This document shows, piece after piece, positions 8,544-50,187 of a stretch of 52,874 bases of DNA; the stretch's first letter is position 1; each line of letters starts with the position of its first letter. The notes beneath the pieces were generated by a model, which was not told where the DNA came from, searched no databases, and saw nothing but the letters and a program-made list of their open reading frames with translations. Source of the stretch: Candidatus Schekmanbacteria bacterium (GTDB lineage Bacteria > CSSED10-310 > JACPHN01); the NCBI GenBank assembly GCA_016188575.1, contig JACPHN010000120.1, forward strand, positions 1-52,874, written 5' to 3'. A program made the translations under genes and the position numbers.

Positions 8544-9524
8544 TTGGAGCTCGCGATCCGACAAGGCGCGCTCGCGTGTCCGCGCCCGTTGCGAAACGGT
8601 GACATGATTGGCGTCGCGGCGCCAGCGGGTCCCGTGGACACGATGCCGCTGGATCGCGGGATTCTCGAGCTGGTTCGCTCGGGATTCCGGGTGCGCGAGG
8701 GCGCCGCACTTCGCCACCGCACGGGGTTCTTGGCGGGCTCCGACATCGCGCGCGCGACCGACATCAATCAGATGCTCAGCGATGCCGAAATCCGCGCCAT
8801 CTTCCTGGCGCGCGGCGGTTACGGCTGCCACCGCCTCTTGCCGATCATCGATTGGGAGGTCCTCGCCGCCACCCCCAAGATCATCATGGGAGCCAGCGAC
8901 TGCACTGCGCTGCTGTGCGGCGCCGCCGCGGTCGCACGCGTCGTCACCTTTCACGGGCCGATGGTCGCCGGCGCGCTGGGGCGGGGGGAAGGCGCGGTCG
9001 CGAAGTTCTTGCGGGAGGACGGCTGGCTGCTCCAGACACGCTCGGAATCGCGCGTCGCCGAGGAGCACCCTGAGGTCTTTGCGGCTGCCAATCGCAACCG
9101 TCAGGTCATTCGCGAAGGCGAAGGCGAGGGAACGCTCATGGTCGGCTGCCTGGCGCTATTTGCCGGCCTCGTCGGTACGCCGTACTTGCCAGACCTGCGC
9201 GGCGCCGTTCTGTGCGTGGAGGATGTCAACGAGCAGCCGTTTCGGCTCGACCGCATGGTCCAACAACTGCGCCTGGCCGGGCTGCTCGACGGCCTGAGCG
9301 GGCTCGTCGTGGGCAGTCTTCTCGGCTGCGGCACTCCCGGCACGCGCCCGTCGGCTCTGGACGTCTTCACCGAAAATTTTGCCACGGCCCCCTACCCCGT
9401 CGTCGCCGGCTTTCCTTTCGGTCACGCCTTCCCGGCTCGCTGCGCACCGTTCGGAGCGCGCGTTCGGCTCACCACCGCACCGCCCGCCGTCCACCTTCTG
9501 AGCTGGCCCGTCGACGCACAATGA
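8544..9524 (+). CDS. ldcA: LD-carboxypeptidase (peptidase family S66)
   Basis: This 326-residue enzyme should cleave the L,D bond of murein tetrapeptides during cytoplasmic muropeptide recycling. The family layout is clear: GDMIGVAAPAGPVD at the N-terminus, the ARGGYGCHRLLPIIDW segment, the nucleophile region GASDCTAL with Ser118, the glutamate region CVEDVNEQPFRLDRM, and the histidine region FPFGHAFPA. The usual GYSD tyrosine is alanine here. No signal peptide is seen, consistent with the cytoplasmic LdcA group. The start is taken as TTG 8544 with a GGAG ten bases upstream; the first in-frame ATG would cut into the domain. Confidence 0.9.
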   Translation: MELAIRQGALACPRPLRNGDMIGVAAPAGPVDTMPLDRGILELVRSGFRVREGAALRHRTGFLAGSDIARATDINQMLSDAEIRAIFLARGGYGCHRLLPIIDWEVLAATPKIIMGASDCTALLCGAAAVARVVTFHGPMVAGALGRGEGAVAKFLREDGWLLQTRSESRVAEEHPEVFAAANRNRQVIREGEGEGTLMVGCLALFAGLVGTPYLPDLRGAVLCVEDVNEQPFRLDRMVQQLRLAGLLDGLSGLVVGSLLGCGTPGTRPSALDVFTENFATAPYPVVAGFPFGHAFPARCAPFGARVRLTTAPPAVHLLSWPVDAQ

Positions 9525-9555
9525 CGCTGGCCACCGTCCGCCGCGACACGCGGTA

Positions 9556-18362: not shown

Positions 18363-21300
18363 TCAGTGGAAGTCCCGCCGCTGGGCTCGGCCGATGGATT
18401 CCGCGGTGCCGAGCGACCCCGCCGTCCATTCGGCGAAGTCCGCACCGATCATACAGATCGCCCCATCCTGGTACTCGATCGCGCCAGCCGCGACCAGCAA
18501 GAACGCATGGCGCAGCGTTGGCCGGTGTTTTTCGTAGATCTGGGGGTTGACGATCACGTCGAGCATCCCGGTCTCGTCCTCGAGCGTCAGGAAGGTAAAC
18601 CCTTTTGCCGTCGGCGGCCGTTGCCGGAGCAGGAGCACGCCGGCAACGCGGCAGGCGGTCCCGTGCTGAACCTCCACCGCCTGAGCCACCGTAATGACCC
18701 CACGCGCCGCGAGCTCGTGCCGAAAAAACGAGGTCGGCCAGTGCCGCGCGGAATGGCGGCCATAGGTGAAGTCTTCGATCCATTCCTCCGTCGGAGTCAT
18801 GGCGGGCAGCGCCACGCCATCGTCCGCGAGTGGCGACAACGGCAGCGCCGGCTGGTCGCGCAGCGCTTCTACCGCCCACAGCGCCGCACGCCGCTTGCCG
18901 CCAAAACAGGAAAACGCCCCGAGCAAGGCCAGGCGCCGCAATAGCGCACGTGGCAGCTCGGTGCGTGCGGCGAAGTCGGCGAGCGATCGATATGCGCCCC
19001 GTTGGCGCTCCCCTTCGATGCGCTCGCGGTGCGCGGGTCCCATGCCCACGACGCAGCGCAACCCGGCGCGCAGCCGCCCCGGGCACGGACCCACGACCTG
19101 CCAGTCCCACGCTGAGGCGTTGACGTCGAGCGGCAGCGTCTCGATGCCGTGCCGCGCGGCATCCGCCACGATCGACGCCGGCGCGTAAAACCCCATCGGC
19201 TGTGAGCTCAGCAGTCCCGCGGCAAACTCCGCTGGATAATACCGTTTCAAGTAGGCAGACACGTACACAAGCAGTGCGAACGACGCGGCATGTGATTCCG
19301 GGAATCCGTAGTCGGCAAACGATTCAAGCTGATTGGCGATTTCCGCCGCCGCGCTTGCCGGTATACCGCGCGCCGCCATGCCCCCCAGGAGCGCGCCGTG
19401 CAATGCCGCCATCCGCGCATGGGAGCGCTTGTGCCCCATCGACCGGCGCAGCTCGTCGGCCTGCGCGGGCGTGAATCCCGCCGCGACAATTGCCACCTTC
19501 ATGCCCTGCTCTTGAAAGAGCGGCACGCCCAACGTCCGGTGCAAGATGGGTGCGAGCGATGGGTGAGGCACGGTGACCGGCTCCTTGCCCGCGCGACGAC
19601 GCAAGTAGGGGTGCACCATGTTTCCTTGAATCGGACCGGGACGAATCAACGCCACTTCCACGACCAGATCGTAGAATGTCCGCGGCCGCAAGCGCGGCAG
19701 TGTGTTGCGCTGCGCCCGCGACTCGATCTGAAAAACGCCCACCGTGTCCGCCGCGCACATCATCCGGTAGACTTCCGGATCGTCGTAATCGAGCTCCTCC
19801 GGCGCGATTCGATGCCCGTACCGCGCGGCGATCAGATCGATCGTCTTGCGGATCATCGTCAAAATGCCAAGCCCCAACAAGTCGATCTTGACCAGCCCGA
19901 CTTCTGCGGCATCATCCTTGTCCCATTGAATGACCGAACGCTTCGGCATCGCCGCGTTCTCCACGGGCACGACTTCCCCCAACGGACGCGCGCTGACCAC
20001 CATTCCCCCTACGTGTATGGACAGGTGGCGGGGAAACCCGATGATCCTCTCCGCCATCGCCATCCAGCGCGAAAACACCTCCTGCGGCGGCCGCGCCCCC
20101 GGGGCCAGCTCGCTTGCCAGAATCGCCGCGAGATCCTGCTCGCGGTCCCGCCCCCACCCATCCACTGTCTTGGCCGTACGATCCACCTCCGATAACGGCA
20201 CCCCGAAGACCTTGCCGACCTCGCGCACCGCGAGCCGCTGGCGATACGAAATCACCTCGCACACGAGCGCCGCGTGGTCCCTCCCGTAGCGCTCATACAC
20301 ATACTGAATCACCTCTTCTCGGCGCTCGTGCTCGATGTCGATGTCGATATCGGGCGGTTCGTTGCGGGCCTCGCTCAGAAATCGCTCGAACAGCAGGTCA
20401 AGCCCCACCGGATCGACCGCCGTTATCCCGAGCGCGTAACACACCACCGAATTCGCCGCGGATCCCCGCCCCTGCGCCAGGATGCCGCGCTCCTGGCAAA
20501 ACCTGGCAATGTCCCACACGATCAGAAAGTACCCGGCAAGCTGCAGCTTCTCGATCACCGACAGCTCGTGACCCAGAAGCTGCCGGTGCCGCTCGGACAG
20601 GCGCCTCCCGTAGCGGCGGCGGGCGCCTTCCTGAGCGAGATCCTGCAGGAGCTCCTGGGGCGTTTTTGCGACCGGGAGCGCGAAACCCGGCAGCCGGTAG
20701 TCGATATCCGCCAGCTCGAACTGGCAGCGCTCCGCAATCTCCACGGAGGCCTGCAGCGCCTCTGGGTAGGCGCCGAAGCGCCGCGCGATCTCTGCGCGCG
20801 GCTTCAGATCGAATTCATCGTTGGGCAGCAACCGCGGCCCCGCGGCCGCCAGCGTCGTGCGCTGCCCGATCGCCCGCAACACATCGTGCACCTGCCGGTC
20901 CGCTCGCTCCAGATAGCGCACGTCGCCCGTGACGACAAAGCGCGCGCCGAGACTCCGTCCCAGCGCCCGCAACCACTCCCGAACCTCCCGCTCCTGCGGC
21001 ATCAGGTGGTCCTGAAGCTCGAGGAAAAAGCGGTCGCGGCCAAACGCTTCGTACAGCGCCCCCGCCACCGCGCGCGCCTCCCGCTCACCGCACAATAACG
21101 ACGTCACACACCCTTCCAGCCCTCCCGACAGCACGATCAGCCCGGCTGTCGACGCCGTCAGGTTCGCCAGCGCCACCGCCCCCTGTCCCTTGGCCGCGGC
21201 CAGCGACCCGCGCGTGATCAGACGCGACAGCGTCCGGTATCCCTCGGCATTCTCGACTAGCACGACGATGCTGCCCCCCCCCTCCATCGTCAGCTCCGCC

Positions 21301-21491
21301 CCAACGATCCCGTGCAAACCCACCTTCCTCGCCGCCGTGAGAAACCGCACGATGCCATAGAACCCATTGCGGTCGGTCAGCGCGAGCGCGCTGTACCCGC
21401 GCTCCGCACCCGCCTCCGCCAGCTCTTCCGGATGCGCTACCGCGTCGAGAAACGTGAAATTGGAATGGCAGTGAAGCTCGGCGTACTCCAT
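18363..21491 (-). CDS. dnaE2: Error-prone DNA polymerase III alpha subunit DnaE2 (ImuC)
   Basis: This is a 1042-residue C-family polymerase of the translesion DnaE2 group. It opens with the PHP domain (YAELHCHSNFTFLDA). The catalytic aspartates are in PPDIDIDIEHERREEV, and QGRGSAANSVVCYALG and ESHAASFALLVYVSAYLKR are hallmark polymerase-core segments. The C-terminus has an OB-fold (GVLLLRQRPPTAKGFTFLTLED), and the beta-binding tail is short, as expected for DnaE2. It normally works with ImuA and ImuB in SOS mutagenesis, but neither gene is adjacent here. The ATG at 21491 coincides with the predicted transcription start of a good promoter. Confidence 0.96.
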   Translation of the reverse strand: MEYAELHCHSNFTFLDAVAHPEELAEAGAERGYSALALTDRNGFYGIVRFLTAARKVGLHGIVGAELTMEGGGSIVVLVENAEGYRTLSRLITRGSLAAAKGQGAVALANLTASTAGLIVLSGGLEGCVTSLLCGEREARAVAGALYEAFGRDRFFLELQDHLMPQEREVREWLRALGRSLGARFVVTGDVRYLERADRQVHDVLRAIGQRTTLAAAGPRLLPNDEFDLKPRAEIARRFGAYPEALQASVEIAERCQFELADIDYRLPGFALPVAKTPQELLQDLAQEGARRRYGRRLSERHRQLLGHELSVIEKLQLAGYFLIVWDIARFCQERGILAQGRGSAANSVVCYALGITAVDPVGLDLLFERFLSEARNEPPDIDIDIEHERREEVIQYVYERYGRDHAALVCEVISYRQRLAVREVGKVFGVPLSEVDRTAKTVDGWGRDREQDLAAILASELAPGARPPQEVFSRWMAMAERIIGFPRHLSIHVGGMVVSARPLGEVVPVENAAMPKRSVIQWDKDDAAEVGLVKIDLLGLGILTMIRKTIDLIAARYGHRIAPEELDYDDPEVYRMMCAADTVGVFQIESRAQRNTLPRLRPRTFYDLVVEVALIRPGPIQGNMVHPYLRRRAGKEPVTVPHPSLAPILHRTLGVPLFQEQGMKVAIVAAGFTPAQADELRRSMGHKRSHARMAALHGALLGGMAARGIPASAAAEIANQLESFADYGFPESHAASFALLVYVSAYLKRYYPAEFAAGLLSSQPMGFYAPASIVADAARHGIETLPLDVNASAWDWQVVGPCPGRLRAGLRCVVGMGPAHRERIEGERQRGAYRSLADFAARTELPRALLRRLALLGAFSCFGGKRRAALWAVEALRDQPALPLSPLADDGVALPAMTPTEEWIEDFTYGRHSARHWPTSFFRHELAARGVITVAQAVEVQHGTACRVAGVLLLRQRPPTAKGFTFLTLEDETGMLDVIVNPQIYEKHRPTLRHAFLLVAAGAIEYQDGAICMIGADFAEWTAGSLGTAESIGRAQRRDFH

Positions 21492-35557: not shown

Positions 35558-36658
35558 CTAAGCCGCAACCGGCTTGATAGCTCCACAGGCAGACAGGGCT
35601 TGCCCAGCCCCCAAGACATTCTTAGCGGCGTTGAGATCGGCGTTCTCGCTATGCCCGCATTGGACGCAGCGGAACACGGCCTGGCTAGGCCGGTTCTCCG
35701 CTGCTGTGTGACCGCAGGCGCTGCAGCGGCGCGACGTATCCCGTGGCGGCACCAAGAACAAGGTGCCACCGAGCCACCGCAGCTTGTAAGCGAGCTGGCG
35801 CTGAAACTCGTACCAGCCTTGATCCAGGATCGCCTTGTTAAGGCCGCTCTTGGCCTTGACGTTCTGGCCAGGGTCTTCGGTCGTTCCCTTGGCAGAGGCG
35901 CTCATGCTTGCGATCTTGAGGTCTTCCAAGAAAACCGTTGCGTGGGTTTTGTTGGTTTCGCGTCTTGAGTTTGGAGTTTCGAGCTCGAAGAGGGTGAACT
36001 CTTCAACTCGAAACTCGAAACTAGAAACCCGAAACTCAAAGCTGTCGAGTGGTTCGACGACTTCGCCGTCGGAAAACGTGACGAACCGGGCGATGCCCAT
36101 GTCGCCACCGACTTCGGTCTTCAAAGGATGAACCGGCTCGGCAGCGTCGCGTTCCGTCTGGATCGAAACGTACCAATGTTCACCGCGGCGAGAAACGGTG
36201 ATCACAGCGGGCGTTCCCACAACAGGCCGGCTGTCGCGATAGCGGACCCAGCCGACCTTGGGAAGGAACACGCGACCGCTCTCAAGCTTGAGCTGCTTCG
36301 GATCGGGGTAGCGGAAGGAATCGAGGTCGCGGCCTTTCTTCTTGAACCGAGGCATTCGTTTCGCGCTGGTCTTTGAAAGGCCATCGCGCAAAGCCCGGCT
36401 GAGGTCGCGGAGGGTCTGCTGTTGGGTGTGCACGGGGCACTCAGCGAGAAAGGCGGTAGCCGGGTCGTGGCGCCAAACCGTGAGCAGCGCGCACAGTTCC
36501 GCATACCCGAGCAGCTTCTCGCCTTGCTTGAGACGCTCCTGCTGAAGGGCAAGGGCACGGTTCCAGACGAAGCGCACACAGCCGGCAACGCGGCGCAGTA
36601 GTTGCGTGATTGCCTGGTTGGTTTTCAGTCTGTATCTGAACGCCTTGCGGATGACCAT
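35558..36658 (-). CDS. tnpB: TnpB (OrfB) RNA-guided nuclease with internal replacement
   Basis: A 366-residue TnpB. The N-terminal helix-turn-helix region (KAFRYRLKTNQ) and wedge parts are normal. RuvC residues are present: Asp in EVGGDMGIARFVTF, Glu in TVFLEDLKIASM, Asp in SENADLNAAKNVL. The zinc finger has CSACG and CVQCG. Between RuvC-I and RuvC-II the usual helical segment of about 55-60 residues is replaced by about 30 residues of repeat-derived sequence (SFEFRVSSFEFRVEEF and following), still in frame. The catalytic residues remain, but the missing helices make activity doubtful. The ATG at 36658 is preferred over a TTG at 36667. Confidence 0.9.
   Translation of the reverse strand: MVIRKAFRYRLKTNQAITQLLRRVAGCVRFVWNRALALQQERLKQGEKLLGYAELCALLTVWRHDPATAFLAECPVHTQQQTLRDLSRALRDGLSKTSAKRMPRFKKKGRDLDSFRYPDPKQLKLESGRVFLPKVGWVRYRDSRPVVGTPAVITVSRRGEHWYVSIQTERDAAEPVHPLKTEVGGDMGIARFVTFSDGEVVEPLDSFEFRVSSFEFRVEEFTLFELETPNSRRETNKTHATVFLEDLKIASMSASAKGTTEDPGQNVKAKSGLNKAILDQGWYEFQRQLAYKLRWLGGTLFLVPPRDTSRRCSACGHTAAENRPSQAVFRCVQCGHSENADLNAAKNVLGAGQALSACGAIKPVAA
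35951..36040. repeat. Simple inverted/tandem repeat block inside tnpB
   Basis: About 90 bp made of GAAACTC / GAGTTTC units in both orientations: a run of AACTCGAAACTCGAAACTAG type on the right, GAGTTTGGAGTTTCGAG on the left, with a central inverted pair GAAGAG...CTCTTC. It can fold on itself and interrupts conserved tnpB sequence without breaking the frame. Comparable minisatellite-like units are common between genes in some bacteria but rare inside conserved genes. Confidence 0.75.
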
Positions 36659-37344
36659 GAACGACAATATAGCGCTCTCTTATGAGCGATGCAAGTGCCA
36701 CGCGCCAATGCATCGAGCAGCAGCAAACTCCGGACTAGGAAGAGAGAAGAGAGAAGAGAAGAAAGAGCGCCTGACTCCGGCCTGAAGGCCGAAGCTTGCG
36801 GCGCGAGACCGGGTCAGACTTGGGCACCGGCGAGCTCGGCCGAAGCGCCCTCCTTGATGCCGCCAGATCGTATCGCCGCGCTGCCGGAACAAGAAATAGG
36901 CGTCGGGCTGTTACCTTGCCGCCCGATGGCCGCCAACGCAACAAGCAGAGTCCTCGACGGCACCGGTTTCTTTGGTGATAATGAAGCCAGCGCGGCGCTG
37001 CTCGTTGGCAGTTGGCGAGGAGCCGCGGACGGTGGTAGTGGCGACGTGAAGGTCAGTGAAGTAGGCCTGGTCTTGGGCGAAGAGCCGCCGGACGACGTAA
37101 GAGTCGGCGGTGGTTCTGGCGGAGCGAGCGAGTCGGATGGCGGTGGCTTCGTGGGCGAGTAGGCGGCTGAATGGTGCGCCGAGCTGGCCCCAACTCGCCG
37201 AGCGGGTGCCGGTGCTGACTTCCGCGGTGGCGTTGTCGCCTGCTGCACGAGGCGTTGGTGCACGCGAGCAGGCTGCTCGAGTGGTCATTTCTGGACCTTT
37301 TGCGCTATCCTCAAGCCAGGCACGCCGCACGAAAGGAACCGACC
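36659..37344. other. Long region without a convincing gene
   Basis: This region of about 690 bp lies between tnpB and the DUF29 gene. It contains the insertion element left end, a purine-only tract (about 36738-36767, GA repeats), the second copy of the right-end hairpin core (36775-36792), and a minus-strand frame of about 125 codons (36911-37288) with a plausible ATG but no recognised domain. A plus-strand frame (36689-37162) is Gly/Ala/Ser-rich and probably spurious. It looks like a junkyard of insertion remnants. Confidence 0.45.
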
Positions 37345-37803: not shown

Positions 37804-38122
37804 ACTGCGCACCGCAGCGGTCAGGAACGCCGGGGGCGATTAGGAATGGCGCAACAACGCGCTCGCGCCCCTGCTCACCGCAGCCTGCGGCGGGAAGAAG
37901 TGTAAAGGACGATACCGGACATTCGGCCGACGCCGGAAATCCGGATGCGATCGGATGCCGAGAGAGAGCTGTCGTGAGCAGACATCGGAGCTTTCTCAAA
38001 AAAGAGCCCGGCTCGACATCAGGTCGAGCCGGGCGATCTCACCGCAGCGAGAAAGTCTCGCCGATCCTTGGGGCGGGTCCGTCTCGGCCCCGACCACGCC
38101 GCCGTTCGCTCCTGTGGGACAG
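37804..38122. other. Intergenic region between convergent genes
   Basis: This 319-bp stretch between the DUF29 gene (plus) and a secreted-protein gene (minus) contains the strong minus-strand terminator at 37998-38034. The remainder (37804-37990) shows no gene or repeat that I can support. Confidence 0.5.
37998..38034 (-). terminator. Rho-independent terminator of the 38123-38836 gene
   Basis: On the minus strand, GCCCGGCTCGAC (38034-38023) and GTCGAGCCGGGC (38017-38006) form a perfect 12-bp stem with a 5-base loop, followed by TC and a run of six T (38003-37998). It lies about 90 bp after the stop of the minus-strand gene and is the clearest intrinsic terminator in the window. Confidence 0.9.
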
Positions 38123-39733: not shown

Positions 39734-42193
39734 CTACTGCTCCTGAACGGCGCGATCGAAGCTCACGCCCTGCGGCACCGGCACCGGAACCGCCACCGTC
39801 TCCTTCGCCGGATCGCGCACCAGGCTGCGGGCGTCAACCGCGATGAACGACGTGTAGCGCGACATGAGCCCGAAGGCGAGCGCGAGGTCCCGGATTTGCA
39901 CCGCTGGTTCCGGCTTGCGCTGCACCAGGGCGTCGTCGGCAAGCCCCGCGAGGTGCAGGCGCGCCCAGATGTTGGCGATGGCGGGATGCTGGTCCGACGT
40001 CTTTCCGAGGTCGGTCGGAATGTCGAGCTTTTGCGGCTCACCCTGCGCCACCCCCTCGACCTGGATGCGCTGCGGACCGTTGCCGTCGTACCGGCCCGTG
40101 ACCACGACCGGCCTGCCGATGAACAGGTCGGGAAGCGTAGTAGGATACACGTCGTGAACCCGCATCTGGCCCCAGTCGATTTTCAGGTTGGTCATGGCGG
40201 CGTGACTGACGCGACTGAAGAATGCATCCATGACCGCGTCGGCCTTGTCGCCCGGGCCGAGGTACGCGGCGGCGCCGCGGCCCAGCTTGGCCAGCCGCTC
40301 GATCAGATACCGGTTTACCGACGAACCGATGCCGACGCTGAAGATCCGGCTCTCGCCGAGCAGCCGCGCGGTCTCCGCCAGAATTTCCTCTTCGTTGCCG
40401 ATGTATCCGTCCGTGAGAAAGGAGACGATGCGCAGCCGCTGTGGGTCATGCGGAAACGCCAGCGCGGCGCGGATTCCCTCGATCATCATGGTGCCCCCTT
40501 CGCCCTTCAGGGACGCGAGATATTTGAGCCCGGCCCTGAGATTGGCACGGGTCGCGGCCAGCGGGACGGGACCCAGCGCCGAGGCGTTTTGGGAAAAGCG
40601 GATGATCTGAAACGTGTCGCCCTGCCGCAGACTCCCCAGCGCACGGGCGATCGCCGCCTTCGCCTGGGTCACCGGCTCGCCGTTCATGCTCCCCGAGCAA
40701 TCCAGCACGAACACCATTTCCATCGGTCCGCGGCCCGTTTGCTCGAGCTCCGCCGGCGGGTAGAGCATCAGGGTAAAAAACCCGCCGCGTTCGTCGCGAT
40801 GGGTCAGCAGTGCGCTCTTGACGCGATCTCCGGCCACCCGATAGCGCAACACAAAGTCGCGATTGGGGATGTGGTCCGCAGGGTCGAGCGTGACCGCAAG
40901 GCGGTTGGGAGACAGATGCTTCGAGGTGATCGCATGAGTAGGGCTCGCGGCTTCCTCGATGGCGACGCCCGCGTCGATGTCGACGGCCAGCGCGATGTCG
41001 TGGCCGCTGCGCTGATCCGGGCGCAGGTAGGAAACCTCCGTGGTCTGGCCGGACGTGCCTTCGGCACCGAGCGCGACGCTGCCCACACCCCCCTTGCTTC
41101 CCGCCGGGTTGAAACGAGGCCCGACCACCATGGGGAAGGAGTACTCGAACCAGCCGTCGACGTAGGCCAGCGTCTCGAAGTAGCGGATGCTGATATCGAT
41201 GGCCTTGCCGGGCTCGATGTTCGCGACGCGCTGGGTGAAGACGTTCGGTCGCTCCTGCGTGAGCAGCGAGGCGACGTGGCCCTGGCGGCGCGCCTCCTGA
41301 TACAGGTTCTCGGCCTCCTGGCGCTCGCGAACGATGCCACGGATGCGGCGCTCGCCGACCGTCATGACGAACTCGCTAACCGCGGATAGTTGCGGCAGCG
41401 GAAAAACGTATTTCGCCTCGATGGTGTCGGTGAAGGGATTGGTGAATCGCTGCGTGACGTCTACCGCCGCAAGGTAGCCGCTGATGTGAGCGTGCACGCC
41501 GGTATGCTCCAGCGGCACCGGCACCTCCCCGGACTCGCCGGCGAGCTCCGCGAGCAACGAGCCCGTCGCGGGTTCGTCTTCGGCAGGCGTTTCCGAGGTT
41601 TTGGGCTTGCCGATGATCCAGAGCTCTTCTCCGGGAACCAGCCGCGCCACCAGATCGGTGGCCTTGGTTACTGCGCCGATTGGCTGTGCAGCAGTGGAAT
41701 CGGGCGACAGCGGTCCAGGCGAGGCCGAACGGCGACCCGGAACCACGAAGGGACGGCGCGAGCCGCCGCCATCCATGCTTGGCGACTCCGGGGAATAGCC
41801 TGTTTCCGCCCCAATCTCACTCACCTCATCGCTTGTCGAGCCAAGATCCACCCCGGAAGCCGGCTGCGCCGCGGGGTGCGTCACCGTCGACTTTGGCGCG
41901 CTCGACGGCCGCTCGACTCCTCCCGATGGCGCCCCCGACTGTTTCTTGCTCTCCGTGGTGACCTTTTTCTCTGCCTCACGAGACTCCCTTTCCCGCTGTG
42001 CCGCACGCTCACGTCGGCTCGAGCGCGACTCCTCTCCGCCGCCATAGCCTGAGGTCTCGCCCAACATCCCGTCGGGCTCGCCCGGATCGGGCGCTATCCT
42101 CTTCTTGGAGCAGGCACCTGCGCTCGCCAACACCAGGAGAACCACTGCCGCCGCCAGAGCTTTCGTACCTGCCGCGTGCCTTTCAATCTTCAT
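39734..42193 (-). CDS. VIT and von Willebrand A domain lipoprotein
   Basis: An 819-residue exported protein with a probable lipoprotein signal (Cys28 in ASAGACSKK). A charged, low-complexity region (about 35-190) is followed by a VIT domain (about 222-355, HISGYLAAVDVTQRFTNPF and YVFPLPQLSAV). The vWA domain (about 492-665) has an intact metal-ion-dependent adhesion site DCSGSMNG and the later FLTDGYIGNEE. The C-terminal segment LALAFGLMSRYTSFIAVD is typical of VIT-vWA proteins. It is the last gene of the ECF-controlled operon, overlapping the cohesin-like gene by 11 nt, and is likely a periplasmic or surface adhesion/assembly component. Confidence 0.88.
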   Translation of the reverse strand: MKIERHAAGTKALAAAVVLLVLASAGACSKKRIAPDPGEPDGMLGETSGYGGGEESRSSRRERAAQRERESREAEKKVTTESKKQSGAPSGGVERPSSAPKSTVTHPAAQPASGVDLGSTSDEVSEIGAETGYSPESPSMDGGGSRRPFVVPGRRSASPGPLSPDSTAAQPIGAVTKATDLVARLVPGEELWIIGKPKTSETPAEDEPATGSLLAELAGESGEVPVPLEHTGVHAHISGYLAAVDVTQRFTNPFTDTIEAKYVFPLPQLSAVSEFVMTVGERRIRGIVRERQEAENLYQEARRQGHVASLLTQERPNVFTQRVANIEPGKAIDISIRYFETLAYVDGWFEYSFPMVVGPRFNPAGSKGGVGSVALGAEGTSGQTTEVSYLRPDQRSGHDIALAVDIDAGVAIEEAASPTHAITSKHLSPNRLAVTLDPADHIPNRDFVLRYRVAGDRVKSALLTHRDERGGFFTLMLYPPAELEQTGRGPMEMVFVLDCSGSMNGEPVTQAKAAIARALGSLRQGDTFQIIRFSQNASALGPVPLAATRANLRAGLKYLASLKGEGGTMMIEGIRAALAFPHDPQRLRIVSFLTDGYIGNEEEILAETARLLGESRIFSVGIGSSVNRYLIERLAKLGRGAAAYLGPGDKADAVMDAFFSRVSHAAMTNLKIDWGQMRVHDVYPTTLPDLFIGRPVVVTGRYDGNGPQRIQVEGVAQGEPQKLDIPTDLGKTSDQHPAIANIWARLHLAGLADDALVQRKPEPAVQIRDLALAFGLMSRYTSFIAVDARSLVRDPAKETVAVPVPVPQGVSFDRAVQEQ

Positions 42194-42650
42194 GCGCGTT
42201 GACCCTTTCTATGGAGATGGTTGCAGGGATTGGTGTCCCTGTCGTATCGGCGGCGACCTGCAGCGCCGCCTGGAACTGCGCGGGCGAATCGCTCCGCTCC
42301 GAATAGTGCACTGACGCGACGCGGACCCGGCCGTGAGCCGGCGCGCCCGAGCTGTCGAACGCCGCCAATATCACGCGGTTTCTGCCGATCGCCTGCGGGT
42401 CGAAGTAGGGCGGCTCGGGGAAGGCGGGGGCGTCACCGCCCTCAATGCCCACGATCGCCACACCGTCGGTCTCGGACGCCACGGTGAGCTGGTAGGCACC
42501 AAGCGGCGCCGCACCCGTGTCCACGATGACGTCCATAGCGCCGAAGCGAAGCGGTCCCGAAGCCACTTGCTCCGGGCGCGTCCCGGAGTCGCAGCCCGGC
42601 TCCACCACCGCCGCGGCCGCCAGGATCGCGAGCACGTATCGTCTCTTCAT
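42183..42650 (-). CDS. Cohesin-like exported protein
   Basis: A 155-residue protein with an N-terminal hydrophobic signal ending at Cys20 (VEPGC, a weak lipobox). The rest is one beta-sandwich reminiscent of cohesin or carbohydrate-binding-2/3 folds: VIVDTGAAPLGAYQLTVASE, IVGIEGGDAPAF, NRVILAAFDSSG, GRVRVASVHY. The upstream, overlapping gene (ATGA) encodes a dockerin, so the two are a candidate cohesin-dockerin pair made together. No cellulosomal enzymes are present. The domain call is by pattern and needs profile confirmation. Confidence 0.68.
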   Translation of the reverse strand: MKRRYVLAILAAAAVVEPGCDSGTRPEQVASGPLRFGAMDVIVDTGAAPLGAYQLTVASETDGVAIVGIEGGDAPAFPEPPYFDPQAIGRNRVILAAFDSSGAPAHGRVRVASVHYSERSDSPAQFQAALQVAADTTGTPIPATISIERVNAHED

Positions 42651-43162
42651 GACCGGTCCGCTCCCTTCAGAGATACCGCGGCCAGGGCCACGACCCTCAC
42701 GTCGGCATCGTCAATGGCTTCGTCTCCATTGACGTTCAGCCGGGGGTCCGCCGCCTCACCGCGTCGGATCGCACGCGACAGTCGATAGGCGTCGAGAATA
42801 TCGACGTGCCCGTCGCCATTGATGTCGTACGCGTCGCCTGGCCGGGCCGCGAACATGCCGCCGCCGCCGCTGGCCGGCGCTCCCGCCTCGCGAACCAGCC
42901 GCGGCCCCACGCTGAGCAACAAGACCGCCGCCGCCGCCACTCCTGCCGCTGCCGCCGGCGCTATCCACCGCACCATGCGGCGCGAGAAGATCCAGGCCAC
43001 ACGGCGGTCGCGCGCCCGATCCCGGGCCGCGGCCACGATGGCTTCGTCCACTGCCGGCGGTACTGCGGCGGCTCGCGCATACAGCGCCCGCAAGTCAGCG
43101 ACGAGCTCCCTTGGAAGCTGGAGATCCGCATCCTCGTCGGTTCGATCGATTGGTTTTTTCAT
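42647..43162 (-). CDS. Membrane-anchored dockerin-domain protein
   Basis: A 171-residue protein with a cytoplasmic helical N-terminus (about 65 residues), one membrane helix (about 68-88, WIAPAAAAGVAAAAVLLLSV), a short Gly-rich spacer and a type I dockerin with two EF-hand-like calcium loops: DINGDGHVDILDAYRLSRAI and NVNGDEAIDDADVRVVALA. The topology puts the dockerin outside the cytoplasm. The cytoplasmic part resembles the small adaptor-like tails of anti-sigma proteins, but no zinc finger is seen. It starts 74 bp after the permease gene and overlaps the cohesin-like gene. Confidence 0.8.
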   Translation of the reverse strand: MKKPIDRTDEDADLQLPRELVADLRALYARAAAVPPAVDEAIVAAARDRARDRRVAWIFSRRMVRWIAPAAAAGVAAAAVLLLSVGPRLVREAGAPASGGGGMFAARPGDAYDINGDGHVDILDAYRLSRAIRRGEAADPRLNVNGDEAIDDADVRVVALAAVSLKGADRS

Positions 43163-43200
43163 CTTGCCACCTCTTGCCCATTAAGCGGCTGAGGGTGGCC

Positions 43201-43224
43201 GATCGTTCAATCGTTCAATCGATC
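43201..43224. repeat. Tandem GTTCAATC repeat between GATC sites
   Basis: Two perfect copies of GTTCAATC (43205-43212 and 43213-43220) are flanked by GATC on each side, in the only sizeable gap (74 bp) of the nine-gene operon. It could be an operator or part of an internal promoter for the dockerin, cohesin and vWA genes. Confidence 0.45.
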
Positions 43225-43236
43225 TCCCGCGCGCGC

Positions 43237-44082
43237 CTATTCGGCGCCGTAGCTGATTTCCAGCTTCCGCAGGCGCCACCCGGCAACGGCAAGCAGCGCG
43301 GCCGCGCCCACCAGCAGCGCGGGAACCGACGCGAGCGCGGATGGCGTCTCGGACACGATCGCCAGTGGCCCCTCCGCCACCGGCAGCGGCAGCAGCGCGG
43401 CCAGGTGGTGGGCGATTCCGAACCGCTTGAGAAACGGCGGCAAAATGAAGCTCACATACTCCCAGACCCAGAACAGACCCACCGCGTAGCTCGGCGTCCT
43501 GAAGACCACGCCGAACAGCAGGCACAAGGCGCCGTAGCTCAGCGCGCCCAGGACCACAATCGCGGCGTAGGCGGCCACCGCGGCCAGCCCGCTTCCGGAC
43601 AGGTGCGCCAGCGACGCCTGGCGCCCCGCCGGCAGCACGGCAAGGACGTACGAGACCACCGTCGCCGGCACGAACAGCAGCGCGGTCGCCGCTACCCCCG
43701 CCAGATACTTGCCCGCCAGCAACGCCTCTCGCCGGATGGGCGACAGAAAAGCGTAGTGCAGCGTGCGGTCGAGCACCTCGCCGCGAATCAGCGACACGAA
43801 GATTTCGCTGCAGGAGAAGTAGAGCAGCGCCTGCACGAAGAGAAGCTGAAAGATCGCATTGAATTGCACGAGATGCTCGCCCAGGCCGAAACCCGATCCG
43901 CGTGCCACGGCCACCAGCGCCAGCAGGCCGAACAGCAGCAGTGGCATCGCCGCCAGCAATGCGTAATAGATCGTTCGTTTGCCCCACAGCGTCCGCCTGA
44001 GCTCAACCGCAAAGACCTCGCCGGCGACCCGCGCCTCTCTTCGCCATTGGGTGGGCGGGAGCATGGTGGCGTGGTCCTTCAT
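43237..44082 (-). CDS. ABC-2 type transporter permease (second pair)
   Basis: A 281-residue polytopic membrane protein with about six helices (YYALLAAMPLLLFGLLALVAVA, LLFVQALLYFSCSEIFVSLI, AAYAAIVVLGALSYGALCLLFG and others) and the ABC-2 signature region RGEVLDRTLHYAFLSPIRREALLAGKY. It has no periplasmic domain. It overlaps its ATPase by ATGA. The cargo is unknown; ABC-2 permeases export lipids, glycans or drugs, or act as mechanotransmission-like complexes. Confidence 0.85.
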   Translation of the reverse strand: MKDHATMLPPTQWRREARVAGEVFAVELRRTLWGKRTIYYALLAAMPLLLFGLLALVAVARGSGFGLGEHLVQFNAIFQLLFVQALLYFSCSEIFVSLIRGEVLDRTLHYAFLSPIRREALLAGKYLAGVAATALLFVPATVVSYVLAVLPAGRQASLAHLSGSGLAAVAAYAAIVVLGALSYGALCLLFGVVFRTPSYAVGLFWVWEYVSFILPPFLKRFGIAHHLAALLPLPVAEGPLAIVSETPSALASVPALLVGAAALLAVAGWRLRKLEISYGAE

Positions 44083-45050
44083 ACGTATCGCTCGCTGCGC
44101 ACGACATAAGAGTAGAGAGCGTGGACGTCGTCGTCCATCGGCTCCACCGCCGCGATGGCCACGCGCTGCTCGAGCACCATGCGGTTGAGGTGTTGGTAGA
44201 AGGCGTCGACCTCCGCGGTGCTGACGATTACGGCCGAGCGATCCGCGGTGATCTCGGCGGCAACGATGTCGCGGCGCGCGAAAGCCTCCGCGGCGACTGC
44301 TTCGGGCCGATCGCAGCGGATGAGAATGCGCAACGGCTCGGTGGCGATCTCCGTGCGCAGCGCATGGACGTCGCCTTCCGCCACCACGTAACCGCCGTCC
44401 AGGATGACGACGAAATCCGCGATCTGATCCAGCTCGTGCAGGATGTGGCTCGAGATGAGCAGATGGCGCCCCTCTGCCGCGAGTGACCGGAACAGAGCGA
44501 TGGCGTCGGCGCGCGCCAGCGGGTCGAGCCCATTGAGCGGCTCGTCGAGCAGCAACACCCGCGGGTCGTGCGCGATCGCGTTCGCCAGCTTGACGCGCTG
44601 GCGCATGCCCTTGCTGTACCCAGCTACCCGGCGCGCGGCGGCGTCGGCGAGGCCCACACGTTCCAGGGCTTGCCATGCCAGCCGCTCCGCCACGGCGCGG
44701 CCGTGGCCGTGGAGCCGCAGATACCGGAGCAAGAACTCGAGCCCGGTTACCCCCGGCGGAAAAGAATCGAATTGGGTACAGTAGCCGACGACCCGAAACA
44801 GCTCGTCGGGCCGCTCCGGCGGTATTCCGAGCGTGCGGATCGCGCCCTGCGACGGGCGCAGCAGCCCGGTCATCAGGTTCATGATCGTCGTCTTTCCCGC
44901 GCCGTTCGGGCCCACCAGCCCCGTGGTACCCGGCGGTATGGACAGGTCCACCCTGTTGACTCCGAGCACCTCTCCATAGAACTTCGAGACGTTTTCGAAC
45001 ACGATACGGCCGTCGCCGCTGCCTTGTCCGGCCGAGCTGGGCGCAGTCAT
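44079..45050 (-). CDS. ABC transporter ATP-binding protein (second pair)
   Basis: A 323-residue nucleotide-binding protein with Walker [10 protein letters not shown], signature GYSKGMRQRVKLANAI, Walker [15 protein letters not shown] and switch histidine in ISSHILHELDQ. About 80 extra C-terminal residues (RILIRCDRPEAVAAEAFARR) form an accessory domain common in ABC-2 exporters. Start and stop both overlap neighbours by ATGA. The frame is open far upstream, but the protein begins at the ATG at 45050 within the previous gene's stop. Confidence 0.92.
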   Translation of the reverse strand: MTAPSSAGQGSGDGRIVFENVSKFYGEVLGVNRVDLSIPPGTTGLVGPNGAGKTTIMNLMTGLLRPSQGAIRTLGIPPERPDELFRVVGYCTQFDSFPPGVTGLEFLLRYLRLHGHGRAVAERLAWQALERVGLADAAARRVAGYSKGMRQRVKLANAIAHDPRVLLLDEPLNGLDPLARADAIALFRSLAAEGRHLLISSHILHELDQIADFVVILDGGYVVAEGDVHALRTEIATEPLRILIRCDRPEAVAAEAFARRDIVAAEITADRSAVIVSTAEVDAFYQHLNRMVLEQRVAIAAVEPMDDDVHALYSYVVRSERYV

Positions 45051-45916
45051 CGCACCACCTCGCAGGCGATCAGCCGCTTTCGCAAGACGAGGAGACTGGC
45101 CCCGAGAAAGACCGCCCCTGCGGTCGAGGCGCCTAGAAGACTCGGCGCCCCGGCCGCCTCCTGGGTGTGAAACAGCGCGCCCCAAAACGCTTCGGCAACC
45201 CTCGGAAGCCGAATCCAGTCGCCGGCGGTCGTGCCGTAGATGGCGTTGATCGCTTCGCCGAGCGAGGCGGAAACGATCAGGTACAGCACCAGGAGCCCGC
45301 GTGCCACCTGGCGCCGCTTGACCGCGGCGCACACCGCCAGCGAGAAGATCCCGAACAGGCCGATCCACAGCCACGAACCCACGAAAATCGCCAGTCCAAG
45401 ACCCGGATTGGCAGCGCGCCAGGCGGCCTCCGCCTGGGATACCTGCAAGACGTAAACCGCCAGACACGGTATCCAGGTAATCGCCGACCCGACCGCCGCG
45501 AGCACCGCGAGCTTCCCGCAGAGGTATTCCCACCGCGACAGAGGGCGCGACAGGTACAGCGGGATCGCGTTGTTGTACAGGTCCTGCGACAGGAGCTGTG
45601 GCGCGGCGATGATCATCGCGATCGTGGCGAAAAAGCCGGCCTGCAGGCCAAGCAGGTGGTAGAAGAAGGCCGCACCGACCTGAAGCTTTTGCGCAAGCTG
45701 CTCGATGCGCAGAAAGGACAGCACGGGCAGGTGATTGGCGAGATAGACGAGGGCGGCGGCCGCCAGCGGGGCCGTCAGACACGTCAAGAAAAACGCCAGA
45801 AAGCTGCGCCCGCGAAAGAGGTCCCGCAGGCCGTAGCGCGGAATCACGAGCAAGCGCTGCCAGTGGGCGGTGGTCGCGCCGCCGTAGACGCGGTAACTCT
45901 GGTCATACACGGCCAT
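45047..45916 (-). CDS. ABC-2 type transporter permease (first pair)
   Basis: A 289-residue membrane protein with six predicted helices, starting [13 protein letters not shown]. Landmarks are [47 protein letters not shown] (the conserved ABC-2 cytoplasmic loop, shown in part) and the final [15 protein letters not shown]. The start overlaps the upstream ATPase gene by 14 nt. It differs clearly from the second permease, so the operon encodes two distinct ABC-2 machines rather than a duplication. Confidence 0.85.
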
Positions 45917-46832
45917 CGGTGGCCTCCATCGCCTCGAGGAAGATGTCCTGCAGCGAGTCGCGCTTGTAGGAGAGCCGGCGGATTTGCACGCCACCGGCAT
46001 CCGCGAGGCGATACAGCTCGAGCATCTCGAGCCCCCCCGGACAGACCACTTTGAGCCCGTGCTTGCCCGCGTTCGCGGTGTCGTAGCCCGCCTGTTGCAG
46101 GCGCGCCGCGAACGCCTCGCGGTCTCCGCGCAGCTCGAGATCGACGAAGCGGCGGTCGGCCTGACGTTCCGCCGCGAGATCGCAGTGCCGCACGATCGCG
46201 CCATCCTTCAGCACCATGACCTCGTCGCAGCACTCCTCGACGTCGCGCAGGAGGTGAGACGAGAAAACGATGTGCACCTCGCCGGCGTCGCGAATCTCCT
46301 GAATGAGCTTGATCATGCGGCGCCGTGCCGGCGGGTCCAGGCCGTTGGTCGGTTCGTCGAGAAGCAGCACGCGTGGCGCGTGGACGATGGCCTGCGCCAG
46401 CTTCGCGAGCTGCTTCATGCCGAGCGAGTAGCCTTCGAGGTTGCGATAGCGCGTTTCGCCCAGGCCGACGTAGTAGAGCACCTCATGCGTACGTTCCAGG
46501 GCCGCCACCGGCGGCAATCCGGACATCTCCGCCAGCATCCGCACCATGCGCACCGCAGACATGCCGGCGATGAAGGCGTCATTCTCCGGCATGTAGCCGA
46601 CGATCGCGCGAAGCTCCTTGCCGTGCGTGCGGATATCCATGCCGGCAAGGCGCGCCGTGCCCCGCGACGGGGCGTGAAACCCGAGTAACGTGCGGATGAG
46701 CGTGGTCTTGCCGGCGCCGTTTGGACCGAGCAGACCGAGCGAGCGACCCGCGAGCGCGATCGTCAAGTCGCGCAGCACGGGCCGTCCGCCGAGCTCGACG
46801 CAGAGATTCTCGAGCGCGATGACTGCCGTCAT
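45903..46832 (-). CDS. ABC transporter ATP-binding protein (first pair)
   Basis: A 309-residue nucleotide-binding protein with Walker [10 protein letters not shown], Walker [15 protein letters not shown] and switch region [11 protein letters not shown]. The signature motif is unusual, reading [17 protein letters not shown] rather than LSGGQ. A C-terminal accessory domain ([20 protein letters not shown]) precedes the tail that ends DIFLEAM. The start overlaps the stop of the anti-sigma/FecR gene by ATGA, tying transport to the regulatory gene. Confidence 0.92.
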
Positions 46833-49495
46833 TGCTCAGCCATCTGCTCGGCGTGACGCGCCATGATGTCGCCCACCCCGAACAGCAGCCCCAGATTGTC
46901 GGCGAGCCCGCCGGCGCTGGTTTCCCCGCTGACGACGATGCGATCGCTTTCGACGTAGGCGACGCCGACGGACGCGGGCGTGTCCGGGCGCAACCGCTCG
47001 TAGGCCACGGCGCTGAAGTCCGTGTGCGCGCCGCGCGGCAGACGGCTCGCGAAGGCCTCGGAGCTCGCCATCGTGTGCCCGACGGCGCGGAAGCGCATCA
47101 TCTTGTCAAGCAAGGCGCGTGCGGGGACCACGACGAGATACCCGTCAACAACGGCGTAGCTCACTTCCCAATGCTCCGCCGGCCAGCTCAATTGACACAC
47201 TTCGAGCGCCTCCGAATCTGGCGCACAGGACACTGTCACCTCGCTCTTCTCTCCCGCCGCGGCAAGCGCTTCGTTTACCTGCACGACGCCGGCGGCAATG
47301 CGCGATTGTATCGTCGCGGGATGGGTGACTTCCAGGACCAGCTTCCACGCCGGCAGTGGCAGCAGCGGACCATCGACCGCGATGGCCAGCTCGCCGCCGA
47401 GCTCCGCGGCGATGCCGCGCAAGAGCTGCAGCGGTTTTTGCAGATCGCCCCAGGAGCCTGCGGCCGCGGTTGCGGCATCGGGGTGAGCGGCGGCGACGAG
47501 GCCCGCGAGATCCTCTACCATGGCCGCCGGCTGCTTCGTCAGCACGACGATCATCGTGCGGGCGTCGGCGGAGATCAGATCGAGCGACCCCATGGGTGCG
47601 GGTTCCCCGAGCCAGGACGGCAGCCCGCGCCGCTCTCCCGTGAAGGACAGGACCGCCTCGCTCTGCGCTTCACCGTCACCGTCGCTGCGACCGCGCAGGA
47701 TGACCTGGTCGACGTCGAGTAACCCGGCACGGCGCAGGACGTTTTCCAGCCGCGCCTGCGCCGCATCGCCGGCGCTCCGGGCCAGGGCCGCGTCCACGCC
47801 GCCGGCGACGTCGATGCCCACGATCCAACTCACACCCTCGCCATAGGCAGAAGCAAGAGCCGACCGATAGCGCTCCTCCGCTGCGCTCGCGGCCTCGGGG
47901 TGCGCGGCGGCCTGCGCCACGCGGCTCGCCAGCTCGGCAGAGAGGCCGGCCGCAAGCACGCCGTTGCCGGCCCAGAGGTAGACGCGCCCGGGCTCGGCGG
48001 GCAGTGCCGCCATGTTGGTATCCGCCGTGATCCGCGTGAGCGCGAGCTCCGGGCGTGCGCCACTTGCGGCAACCCGGGCGAGCACCGCGGCCAGCGCCTC
48101 CTGAAACGCCGCTTCGTCCGTCAGACGGGCCAGCACGAGCGGTTGCAAGCCGCGCTCGGGCGCCGTCTCCAGCGCGTTCACGACCGCGAAGCCGACTTCC
48201 TCACCCAGACTTCGCCCCAGACCCTCGATCGCCGTCAGGATTTGCTCGAAGGCTTCCAACTCCAGCTCGCCGCCCTGCACCTGCTGCCAGTAGGAGCGGA
48301 GCATCGCGTCCTCGGCGATGCGGTCGCGCAGGAAGCGGTAGCTCTCGCCGATGGTCTCGCTATAGTTGGGGACGGACGCGAAGGCGACCGTGCCGCTGGG
48401 TAGCAGCGGGAGGAGCTCGCTCTGATAGCGCGGCCCGGGTGCCGGCACCGCGTCTCGAAGGTCGGCTGCGAGCTCGGTCAACCGCGCCACCAGCTCGTGG
48501 TAGTCCTCCGCCTTGTCGCTCCAGGCAATGTCCTGTGCCACCGGGATGCGGGCGACGCGGTCCGCCGTGGTGACCCGCTGTCCGGGACGGACGCGCTGCT
48601 CGGCGCCGTGATGCGCGACACGCACCTCGCCCTCGATGACCGAAACTCGGCCCCCCGTGGTGCCGTGGGAGACGGAGAAAATCGTGCCGGTGACGGTGAC
48701 GAGCGCTTCCGGCGTCGCCACCCGGAGCACCCCGTCGCGCTGCTTCGCGGCCTCGACGATGATGCTGCCGCGGTCGAGCTTGATGGTCGTCTCATGAGGC
48801 AAGCGGGCCAGCGTCATCGCCGAACCTTCCCGCATCTCCACCAGCGAGCCGTCAAAGAGTCGGATGACGGCGCGCGCGCCCTTTGCGGTCCGCACCTCCT
48901 CCCCGGCCCTGACGTCCGCGCCCGAGCGCAGGCTGGTGGCGCCACGGGTGCCGGACACGCGCGCCAGCTCTCCGCGCACCAGCTCGACCGCGGCGATGTC
49001 GTCACCGCCGCCGCCGCCGTCGCCCACCCCGCGCCAGGCGCCGCGCTGCACCGCGAGCCAGCTCAAGGAGCCCACCGCGAGCAACAGCGTCGCGGCCACC
49101 GCCAGTTGTATGGCGCCAAAGCGACGGCCCGGCACCGCGGCGGCCGGTCGCCGGAGCGGCACGACCTTCGCGCCCCCGCTACCCGCCGGAGCCTCGGCGA
49201 CGGCTCGCGGCGCTAGCTCGTGCGCCCGCCGGCAGCTCGGGCAGGCGTGCAGATGGTCCCGCAACAGCAGGCGGCGGCCTTCCGAAAGCGCGCCCGCGCG
49301 CTCCAGGCCAAGCACCTCGCGAAATTGCTCGCAGCCCCCGTCCACTTCGCGCGCCGGCACGCCCAGCTCGGCGCCTATTTTCTCCCAGGATCGCGCCGCG
49401 GATCGCCGCCGCGTCGCCGTATCGACGTCATCCTCGCGCACCTGCTCGACGGCCTCGTCCAGCAGCTCATCGCTCGGATCTCTATACTCGCTCAT
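46829..49495 (-). CDS. Anti-sigma/FecR-domain membrane protein with DUF3352-like ectodomain
   Basis: An 888-residue single-pass protein. The cytoplasmic N-terminus ends in an anti-sigma zinc finger (HLHACPSC, the Hx3Cx2C pattern). One membrane helix follows (about residues 128-150, [19 protein letters not shown]). Outside lies a FecR domain ([22 protein letters not shown] in parts, [13 protein letters not shown]). The remaining 550 residues resemble DUF3352 ([41 protein letters not shown] in parts). It probably holds the ECF sigma factor at the membrane and releases it on an envelope signal. Its ATG overlaps the sigma stop. Confidence 0.87.
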
Positions 49496-50052
49496 GCTCG
49501 TTCTCCCCAAAAAAGACCCAGGTCCTTGCGCAGCTCGGCGCGGGCGCGATGAAGGGTGACCCGGACGACACTGTCCGAAGTGGCGAAGAAGGCGGCGATC
49601 TCGGGGCTCGAGTAGCCCTCGAAGTAGCGCAGGACGAACATCTGCGCTGCCCGCGGGTGTAGCCCGGCCAGCGCCGCCCGCAGCCGACCGCGCAACTGAC
49701 TGCGGTCGGAGAGCGACTCGGGAGTTGCACCGTGCCCCGTTTCAGCGGGCGGGTCGAGCTCGTCGAGCGCCACGAGGGGGCGGCGCGTGCGCGCCCTCAC
49801 GATGTCCAGTGCAGCATTGACTGCGGCGCGCCGAAGATAGGTGCCAAGATTGCCTACCTCCTGGGCCACCGGCTCCGAGGATCGCGCCAGACGCAAGAAG
49901 ACCGTCTGCACCACGTCCTCGGCATCCTCGATCCGCCCCGCGACTCGGTAAGCAGCGCGAAAGACGCCTTCGTGGTGCGCCTCGAACGCTCCTTCGAGCC
50001 ACGCCATGGCGGCGGGCGATGCGGTTTGTTGTTGTCTCACCAGTGCCAACAC
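49492..50052 (-). CDS. ECF-type RNA polymerase sigma factor
   Basis: A 186-residue sigma70-family factor. Region 2 is EGVFRAAYRVAGRIEDAEDVVQTVF, recognisable by the AEDVVQ core. Region 4 is a helix-turn-helix around MFVLRYFEGYSSPEIAAFF. I chose the GTG at 50052 because AAGGAGG lies five bases upstream; upstream frame extension is unlikely. It is the first gene of the nine-gene operon and is coupled by ATGA to its probable anti-sigma factor, so it likely drives its own operon. Confidence 0.92.
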   Translation of the reverse strand: MLALVRQQQTASPAAMAWLEGAFEAHHEGVFRAAYRVAGRIEDAEDVVQTVFLRLARSSEPVAQEVGNLGTYLRRAAVNAALDIVRARTRRPLVALDELDPPAETGHGATPESLSDRSQLRGRLRAALAGLHPRAAQMFVLRYFEGYSSPEIAAFFATSDSVVRVTLHRARAELRKDLGLFWGERA

Positions 50053-50151
50053 TCTAGCCTCCTTGCGATGAATTCTACAGAGCAAGACGGCAGCGGAGGC
50101 GGGAGCGTTAACGGCGTGCGGGCGGCGTGAAGGAAACGCTGTGAGCGGATA

Positions 50152-50187
50152 GGCGGGAGAGGTGTGACCGAGTCAACCTCTCCCGCC
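50152..50187 (-). terminator. Strong 12-bp hairpin upstream of the ECF operon
   Basis: GGCGGGAGAGGT (50152-50163) and ACCTCTCCCGCC (50176-50187) form a perfect stem; the loop itself holds TGAC/GTCA pairs. It lies 16 bp after the stop of the 50203-50886 gene and before the sigma gene. On the minus strand no T-run follows, but the stem is long enough to separate the two transcription units. Confidence 0.6.

Follow-up and report, generated by a model that had tools for sequence, protein, structure and literature searches.

The window, i.e., the whole 52,874-nucleotide (nt) stretch taken from contig JACPHN010000120.1 of Candidatus Schekmanbacteria bacterium, contains nine minus-strand genes at positions 39734-50052. 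These encode, in order, an extracytoplasmic function (ECF) sigma factor (sig), a FecR/DUF3352 membrane protein (fecR), two ATP-binding cassette (ABC) ATPases alternating with two ABC-2 permeases, a membrane protein with a dockerin domain (dock), a cohesin-like protein (coh) and a protein with VIT and von Willebrand factor A (vWA) domains (vwa) (Table 1). Seven of the eight junctions overlap. From sig to vwa the overlaps are 4, 4, 14, 4 and 4 nt and, after a 74-nt gap between the second permease gene (permease2) and dock that is the only non-overlapping junction, 4 and 11 nt. An earlier note on this DNA had listed the same genes and overlaps, which were recovered here, and had read them as one regulated system. 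The latter reading failed a co-location check in other genomes: the first six genes (the core) and the last three (the tail) each recur apart, and the nine-gene order was not found among 31 core loci and five tail cassette loci. Recurrence of both parts elsewhere puts the gene order far beyond chance. The nine genes probably represent two different envelope-signalling modules, placed end to end in one direction.

Table 1. Features of the nine-gene region, with lengths in amino acids (aa) and the basis of each assignment
Feature	Description	Positions	Strand	Basis
Hairpin	GGCGGGAGAGGT...ACCTCTCCCGCC, no T-run, between upstream gene and sig	50152..50187	minus	read from sequence
Core ECF promoter	CGTTAACGC-N15-CGTCTT	50084..50113	minus	profile from 13 other genomes
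sig	ECF sigma factor, 186 aa	49492..50052	minus	Pfam Sigma70_r2 and r4; orthologues 42-50% identical in syntenic loci
fecR	Anti-sigma, 888 aa: Hx3Cx2C zinc motif, transmembrane helix, FecR, DUF3352-type C-terminal half	46829..49495	minus	zf-HC2, FecR, AlphaFold2 model
ABC ATPase 1	309 aa	45903..46832	minus	ABC_tran; 56-64% identity in syntenic loci
ABC-2 permease 1	289 aa	45047..45916	minus	weak ABC2_membrane_2; synteny
ABC ATPase 2	323 aa	44079..45050	minus	ABC_tran; 51-65% identity in syntenic loci
ABC-2 permease 2	281 aa	43237..44082	minus	weak ABC2_membrane_2/4; synteny
Predicted tail-cassette ECF promoter	TGAACGATCG-N13-GCTTAATG	43179..43209	minus	in 74-nt seam, 47 nt 5′ of dockerin start
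dock	Single-pass membrane protein, anti-sigma-like N-terminal side, external dockerin, 171 aa	42647..43162	minus	Dockerin_1; alignment with cassette homologues
coh	Exported cohesin-fold protein, 155 aa	42183..42650	minus	AlphaFold2 model; PDB cohesin matches
vwa	VIT and vWA, probable lipoprotein, 819 aa	39734..42193	minus	VIT, VWA_3; metal ion-dependent adhesion site motif DCSGSM

The six-gene core operon

When 84,980 species genomes were searched with the fecR protein, 31 loci were recovered; 30 belong to Acidobacteriota and the remaining one is labelled Deltaproteobacteria. Several are on short contigs that carry part of the core only. Wherever the genes are present their order is constant, i.e., sigma, FecR, ATPase, permease, ATPase, permease, and the ATPases are 51-65% identical; both ABC-2 permeases of the window score below the Pfam cut-offs. 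No dockerin, cohesin-like or VIT-vWA gene of the tail kind is found within 10 kb of the 31 loci. Among the 20 loci in which the gene 3′ of permease2 is visible, 10 have it on the opposite strand; in genome G089 the six genes are likewise present and a convergent gene comes next. The core is a widespread, apparently undescribed envelope-regulated exporter operon of Acidobacteriota. No paper on DUF3352 or on the core operon was found in the literature searched, and none on a system with the full set of nine genes, as the earlier note had also held; because the search covered open-licence papers only, such absence is weak evidence.

In a tree of both ATPases the window is placed inside the core-operon clade (support 100) on a long branch, together with locus L053 (support 89). 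A recent transfer of the core operon was considered and rejected, as the composition is native, though the ATPase tree nests the window among core-operon loci. Seven other genomes of the window's phylum have no fecR match, and only a distant ABC quartet (ATPase-permease-ATPase-permease) is present, in genome G002. The quartet alone is more widespread and occurs in several distant lineages. In genome G287 it adjoins a divergent ECF sigma gene, with a DUF3352-TPR protein gene two genes further on (locus L028, 4105-12748). The DUF3352-TPR gene is in line with the ECF sigma gene and divergent from the quartet, and forms an independent link between DUF3352 and this type of exporter. An extra gene of ~150 aa with a hydrophobic stretch is found between the FecR and first ATPase genes in several loci (L037:12675-13112, L039:12726-13172, L044:2307-2780); the one that was scanned has no Pfam match.

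The ECF/FecR type of regulation proposed in the earlier note is upheld by the ECF sigma domains of sig, which has a GTG start codon preceded by AAGGAGG, and by the zf-HC2 and FecR domains of its neighbour. The window fecR protein displays the zinc anti-sigma motif Hx3Cx2C as HLHACPSC, and one predicted membrane helix. The motif is present in most relatives, the exceptions being mainly proteins cut by contig ends. Module 1 has an ECF sigma gene directly beside an Hx3Cx2C membrane protein, the arrangement by which class I systems are recognized. The FecR domain (PF04773) scores 56.7 bits, and the FecR part of the AlphaFold2 model matches 4m0n, a Bacteroidota anti-sigma structure, with Z 17.5, and PupR with Z 16.6. 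The DUF3352 call holds for the family, with scores in 17 of 27 aligned members, and not for the window protein itself, which is below threshold. This C-terminal half is alpha/beta in the model and its structural matches are weak, i.e., TP0453 with Z 9.6 and a root mean square deviation (rmsd) of 4.9, and RseB with Z 4. A TP0453-like fold is a hint only, given that rmsd.

An ECF sigma gene beside that of a FecR-domain anti-sigma whose model matches PupR is also what would be expected of classical FecR cell-surface signalling for iron carriers. It is extremely unlikely that module 1 is such a system, however, as no TonB-dependent receptor is found among the nine genes or the scanned flanking proteins, the N-terminus is a zinc anti-sigma domain and ABC-2 exporter genes lie behind.

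A promoter consensus 5′ of sig, tGTTAATaa-N14-CGTyTA, is common to 13 relatives, and a TGTAAT...GGTCTA variant is found in other core loci. The window copy is 61 nt 5′ of sig and ranks third among all window positions on both strands; its spacer is one base longer than that of the relatives.

The tail cassette and the seam

The coh sequence was searched in hundreds of genomes; apart from that of the window, just four (G293, G155, G292 and G497) gave good scores. These contain five cassette loci, two of them in G293 (contigs C287 and C53). Four of the five read ECF sigma, membrane dockerin, cohesin-like, VIT-vWA; at the fifth, L088 (the C53 copy of G293), the dockerin gene is 318 nt from the contig end, which leaves no space for a sigma gene. 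No core genes are present on the five stretches examined. Near G293 and G292 no cassettes were found beyond the known ones, and among weaker Acidobacteriota cohesin-like matches the two of seven that were opened (L164 and L165) are in unrelated gene contexts. The tail is a separate, rare cassette, with its own ECF sigma elsewhere. Locus L088 has in addition, between coh and vwa, a gene for a carboxypeptidase-regulatory-like probable lipoprotein (8703-9539, minus strand).

No match to the Pfam Cohesin domain (PF00963) is found in the window coh protein or its five homologues, and the earlier cohesin-like call stands at the level of predicted fold. An AlphaFold model from five sequences (predicted local distance difference test score 80) has cohesin modules, or entries containing them, as its 26 best Foldseek matches. 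VIA-align to 6kge_A gives Z 10.3 and rmsd 2.9 over 116 residues, with cohesins nearly filling the top 50. Thus, by its model, coh is predicted to have a cohesin fold. The vwa protein scores 476 bits with TIGR03788 over most of its length, below the cut-off of 551.65; its C-terminal tail is VPVPQGVSFDRAVQEQ, with no sortase tail or LPXTG-like signal. In the vwa tree the window copy is grouped with cassette copies (87/84), apart from lone copies of its own phylum, and the L087 copy forms a long branch outside both groups.

The dockerin call is sound for the window protein, which scores 25.2 bits with Dockerin_1 (Pfam cut-off 22.9) and has two complete calcium loops, DINGDGHVDILD and NVNGDEAIDDAD. 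Homologues L090 and L163 have a degenerate first loop. Basic residues precede the membrane helix of dock, and this suggests an internal N-terminus and an external dockerin. An alignment of six dock homologues shows Hx3Cx2C ahead of the helix in three, L088, L089 and L090 (HIRTCPEC, HVKACPRC and HAAGCRRC); it is absent from the window protein, L087 and L163. A dock family profile run on 386 genomes gave weak off-cassette matches, and the five opened are all zf-HC2 anti-sigma genes directly beside ECF sigma genes. The relatives of the dock gene show anti-sigma kinship.

Large open frames in which cohesin and dockerin domains occur together are found on contigs C31, C138, C221, C233, C235 and C257 of the window's own genome, and the bin has a total of 14 cohesin and 12 dockerin matches. 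At the end of some C138 frames, basic residues come after a hydrophobic stretch.

In four cassette loci, GAACCTTTT-N13-GCTnnA (type form GAACCTTTT-N13-GCTTAA) is found 5′ of the dockerin gene and has leave-one-out rank first in each locus. It should be noted that these ranks are partly circular, because the motif was spotted by eye in the same loci before scoring. The independent test is the fifth locus, L163, found later, where TGAACCTTTT-N13-GCTTAATG occupies the same place and has rank 1 of 24,866. The site in the window seam, i.e., the 74-nt gap, was outside the training set; of about 105,690 window positions it has rank 6 with four training sites and rank 2 with five. In the own-genome sequence scanned, the stringent cassette pattern is found at the seam only. 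The core promoter motif has no match in the seam (score -4.7), and modules 1 and 2 have different promoter types.

The bin holds one ECF sigma near the cassette type (186 bits, the next 94.5), on contig C32 (L131:1672-2238). This orphan is between a minus-strand gene and nap-like genes (molybdopterin oxidoreductase, ferredoxin-type), with no anti-sigma gene beside it. Inspection by eye 5′ of the C32 sigma gene and of the cassette sigma genes found nothing convincing as a cassette promoter. The C32 sigma as the sigma of the window cassette is a lead, not a result.

The join of the two modules is seen in one genome only, and this genome is assembled in many pieces (275 contigs, 3.68% contamination), as would be expected if the junction were an error of assembly in the metagenome bin. 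This is nevertheless very unlikely. The composition of the nine-gene region matches other bin contigs (r 0.85), neither permease2 nor dock is truncated, and the promoter match of the seam has the position seen in the relatives.

A probable pair of joined modules and the alternatives

The interpretation favored here, and a probable one, is that two ECF-sigma modules are joined head to tail and that the second may use a cohesin-dockerin contact to control sigma release. In module 1, the ECF sigma would be held by the FecR/DUF3352 membrane protein through its zinc anti-sigma domain, and a signal at the extracytoplasmic half of this protein would liberate the sigma. The free sigma would then transcribe its own operon from GTTAA(T/C)-N17/18-CGTYT. 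The output would be a Pmt-like four-subunit ABC-2 exporter, most likely clearing or moving a membrane-active compound, although this substrate is guessed from the resemblance of the gene arrangement to that of Pmt. In module 2, which has three genes here and four elsewhere, a membrane anti-sigma-like protein would expose its dockerin outside, with the cohesin-fold protein as the predicted dockerin ligand and the co-expressed VIT-vWA lipoprotein as a possible output or partner at the surface. Whether the dockerin is free or occupied is predicted to switch the cassette sigma. In the window, the cassette lies behind module 1 and retains a weak version of its own promoter, and its likely sigma would be the orphan on the other contig. 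With that sigma elsewhere, module 1 could also supply module 2 by read-through. We infer the cohesin-dockerin binding, the sigma release, the export substrate and the orphan-sigma pairing.

A more specific proposal is tentative and perhaps doubtful, i.e., that the cohesin-dockerin contact is itself an ECF switch. The anti-sigma would sense via its dockerin, and the ligand would be the cohesin from the same target operon; in the window this circuit would be cross-wired into a second ECF operon, with the sigma acting from a distant orphan gene.

Several observations weigh against the two-module interpretation. Three of the six dock homologues do not reach the Pfam dockerin cut-off. The window dock has no zinc motif, and the sigma gene that adjoins dock at four of the other five cassette loci is absent from the window; the protein may thus have ceased to act as an anti-sigma factor. 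The tetranucleotide usage of C32 is rather atypical (r 0.69, with other own pieces at 0.62-0.89), so this contig may not belong to the genome of the window. The -35 box of the seam site is degenerate after GAAC, which makes the activity of the seam promoter uncertain. Finally, the seam has no clear terminator (the structured RNA check gave a fold z-score of -1.1), and one nine-gene transcript is thus possible.

The tail could instead serve surface attachment only, with dock a plain anchor, coh an adaptor, vwa an adhesin and the anti-sigma ancestry a relic without signalling. The loss of the zinc motif in the window, L087 and L163 would agree with this, as would the many other dockerins and cohesins of the same genome, which resemble a surface-assembly network. 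However L087 and L163, also motif-free, still adjoin their sigma, and zinc-free anti-sigma domains of the class I kind are common (PMC7406223). The cassette promoter is moreover found 5′ of the anti-sigma-like gene in all five loci. Attachment alone is thus considered rather unlikely.

In favor of the single-system reading, in which the nine genes would form one regulated envelope machine whose extracytoplasmic proteins dock onto the ABC complexes, are the shared strand, the gene overlaps, the one good promoter match at the front and the lack of a clear terminator at the seam. It is nonetheless an unlikely reading, since the nine are together in no other genome examined, each part is found alone elsewhere and a second promoter type is matched at the seam. 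The preferred interpretation is that of two joined modules, and such an arrangement would be a natural case of two stress circuits in one transcription direction.

Elsewhere in the window, a strong terminator-like hairpin with a T tail is at 38006-38034 (minus strand), 3′ of the 38836-38123 gene, and is likely the end of minus-strand transcription beyond the GNAT gene (39611-39093). A TnpB-like gene with HTH_OrfB_IS605 and Cas12f1-like TNB domains is at 35558-36667 (minus strand), and a DNA polymerase III alpha subunit gene of 1042 aa is at 18363-21491 (minus strand).

Comparison with known systems

Cohesin and dockerin domains are known mainly as the structural glue of cellulosomes. Many other bacteria and archaea carry them with, to our knowledge, no known use. 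Here the gene of an anti-sigma-like membrane protein with a dockerin is next to that of a cohesin-fold protein, an arrangement that points to a possible use of cohesin-dockerin contacts in signalling outside cellulosomes. With the conserved cassette of sigma, anti-sigma-dockerin and cohesin, a role of such domains in signal transduction becomes testable. As the core operon has a defined promoter, its regulon is directly searchable.

Both modules are classed as variants of ECF/anti-sigma systems. Features shared with the ECF systems with a class I anti-sigma domain (ASDI) are a sigma gene directly followed by that of an Hx3Cx2C membrane protein, and a conserved promoter 5′ of the sigma gene as in autoregulated systems. 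The difference is in the external part: in module 1 this is FecR and DUF3352, module 2 has a dockerin there, and the literature searched shows neither. Module 1 shares the FecR-domain fold with FecR/PupR cell-surface signalling (Z 16.6-17.5), but the window operon has no TonB receptor among its nine genes, and exporter genes follow its sigma/anti-sigma pair. In staphylococci, the operon of the PmtABCD exporter combines two ATPase with two permease genes, as does the core. The PmtD match, however, is only 21.4 bits (NCBIfam cut-off 220), and the window operon would be under ECF control. The VIT and vWA domains of vwa are those of the TIGR03788 marine sortase targets, from which it differs in its score below the cut-off, its tail without an LPXTG-like signal and its lipoprotein-type N-terminus.

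A last comparison is with biomass sensing by SigI/RsgI in Clostridium thermocellum. Outside SigI/RsgI work, the combination of an ECF sigma or an anti-sigma with cohesin and dockerin was not found in the open-licence literature searched. RsgI proteins carry carbohydrate-binding module, glycoside hydrolase or PA14 sensors, not dockerin (PMC3413522, PMC12484212). In the Pfam scans no RsgI domain was found, and the sigma is ECF, not SigI-type. The external module of dock is a dockerin, and the cassette is without cellulosome genes. Module 2 would nevertheless resemble SigI/RsgI in its use of a membrane anti-sigma with an external sensing module.

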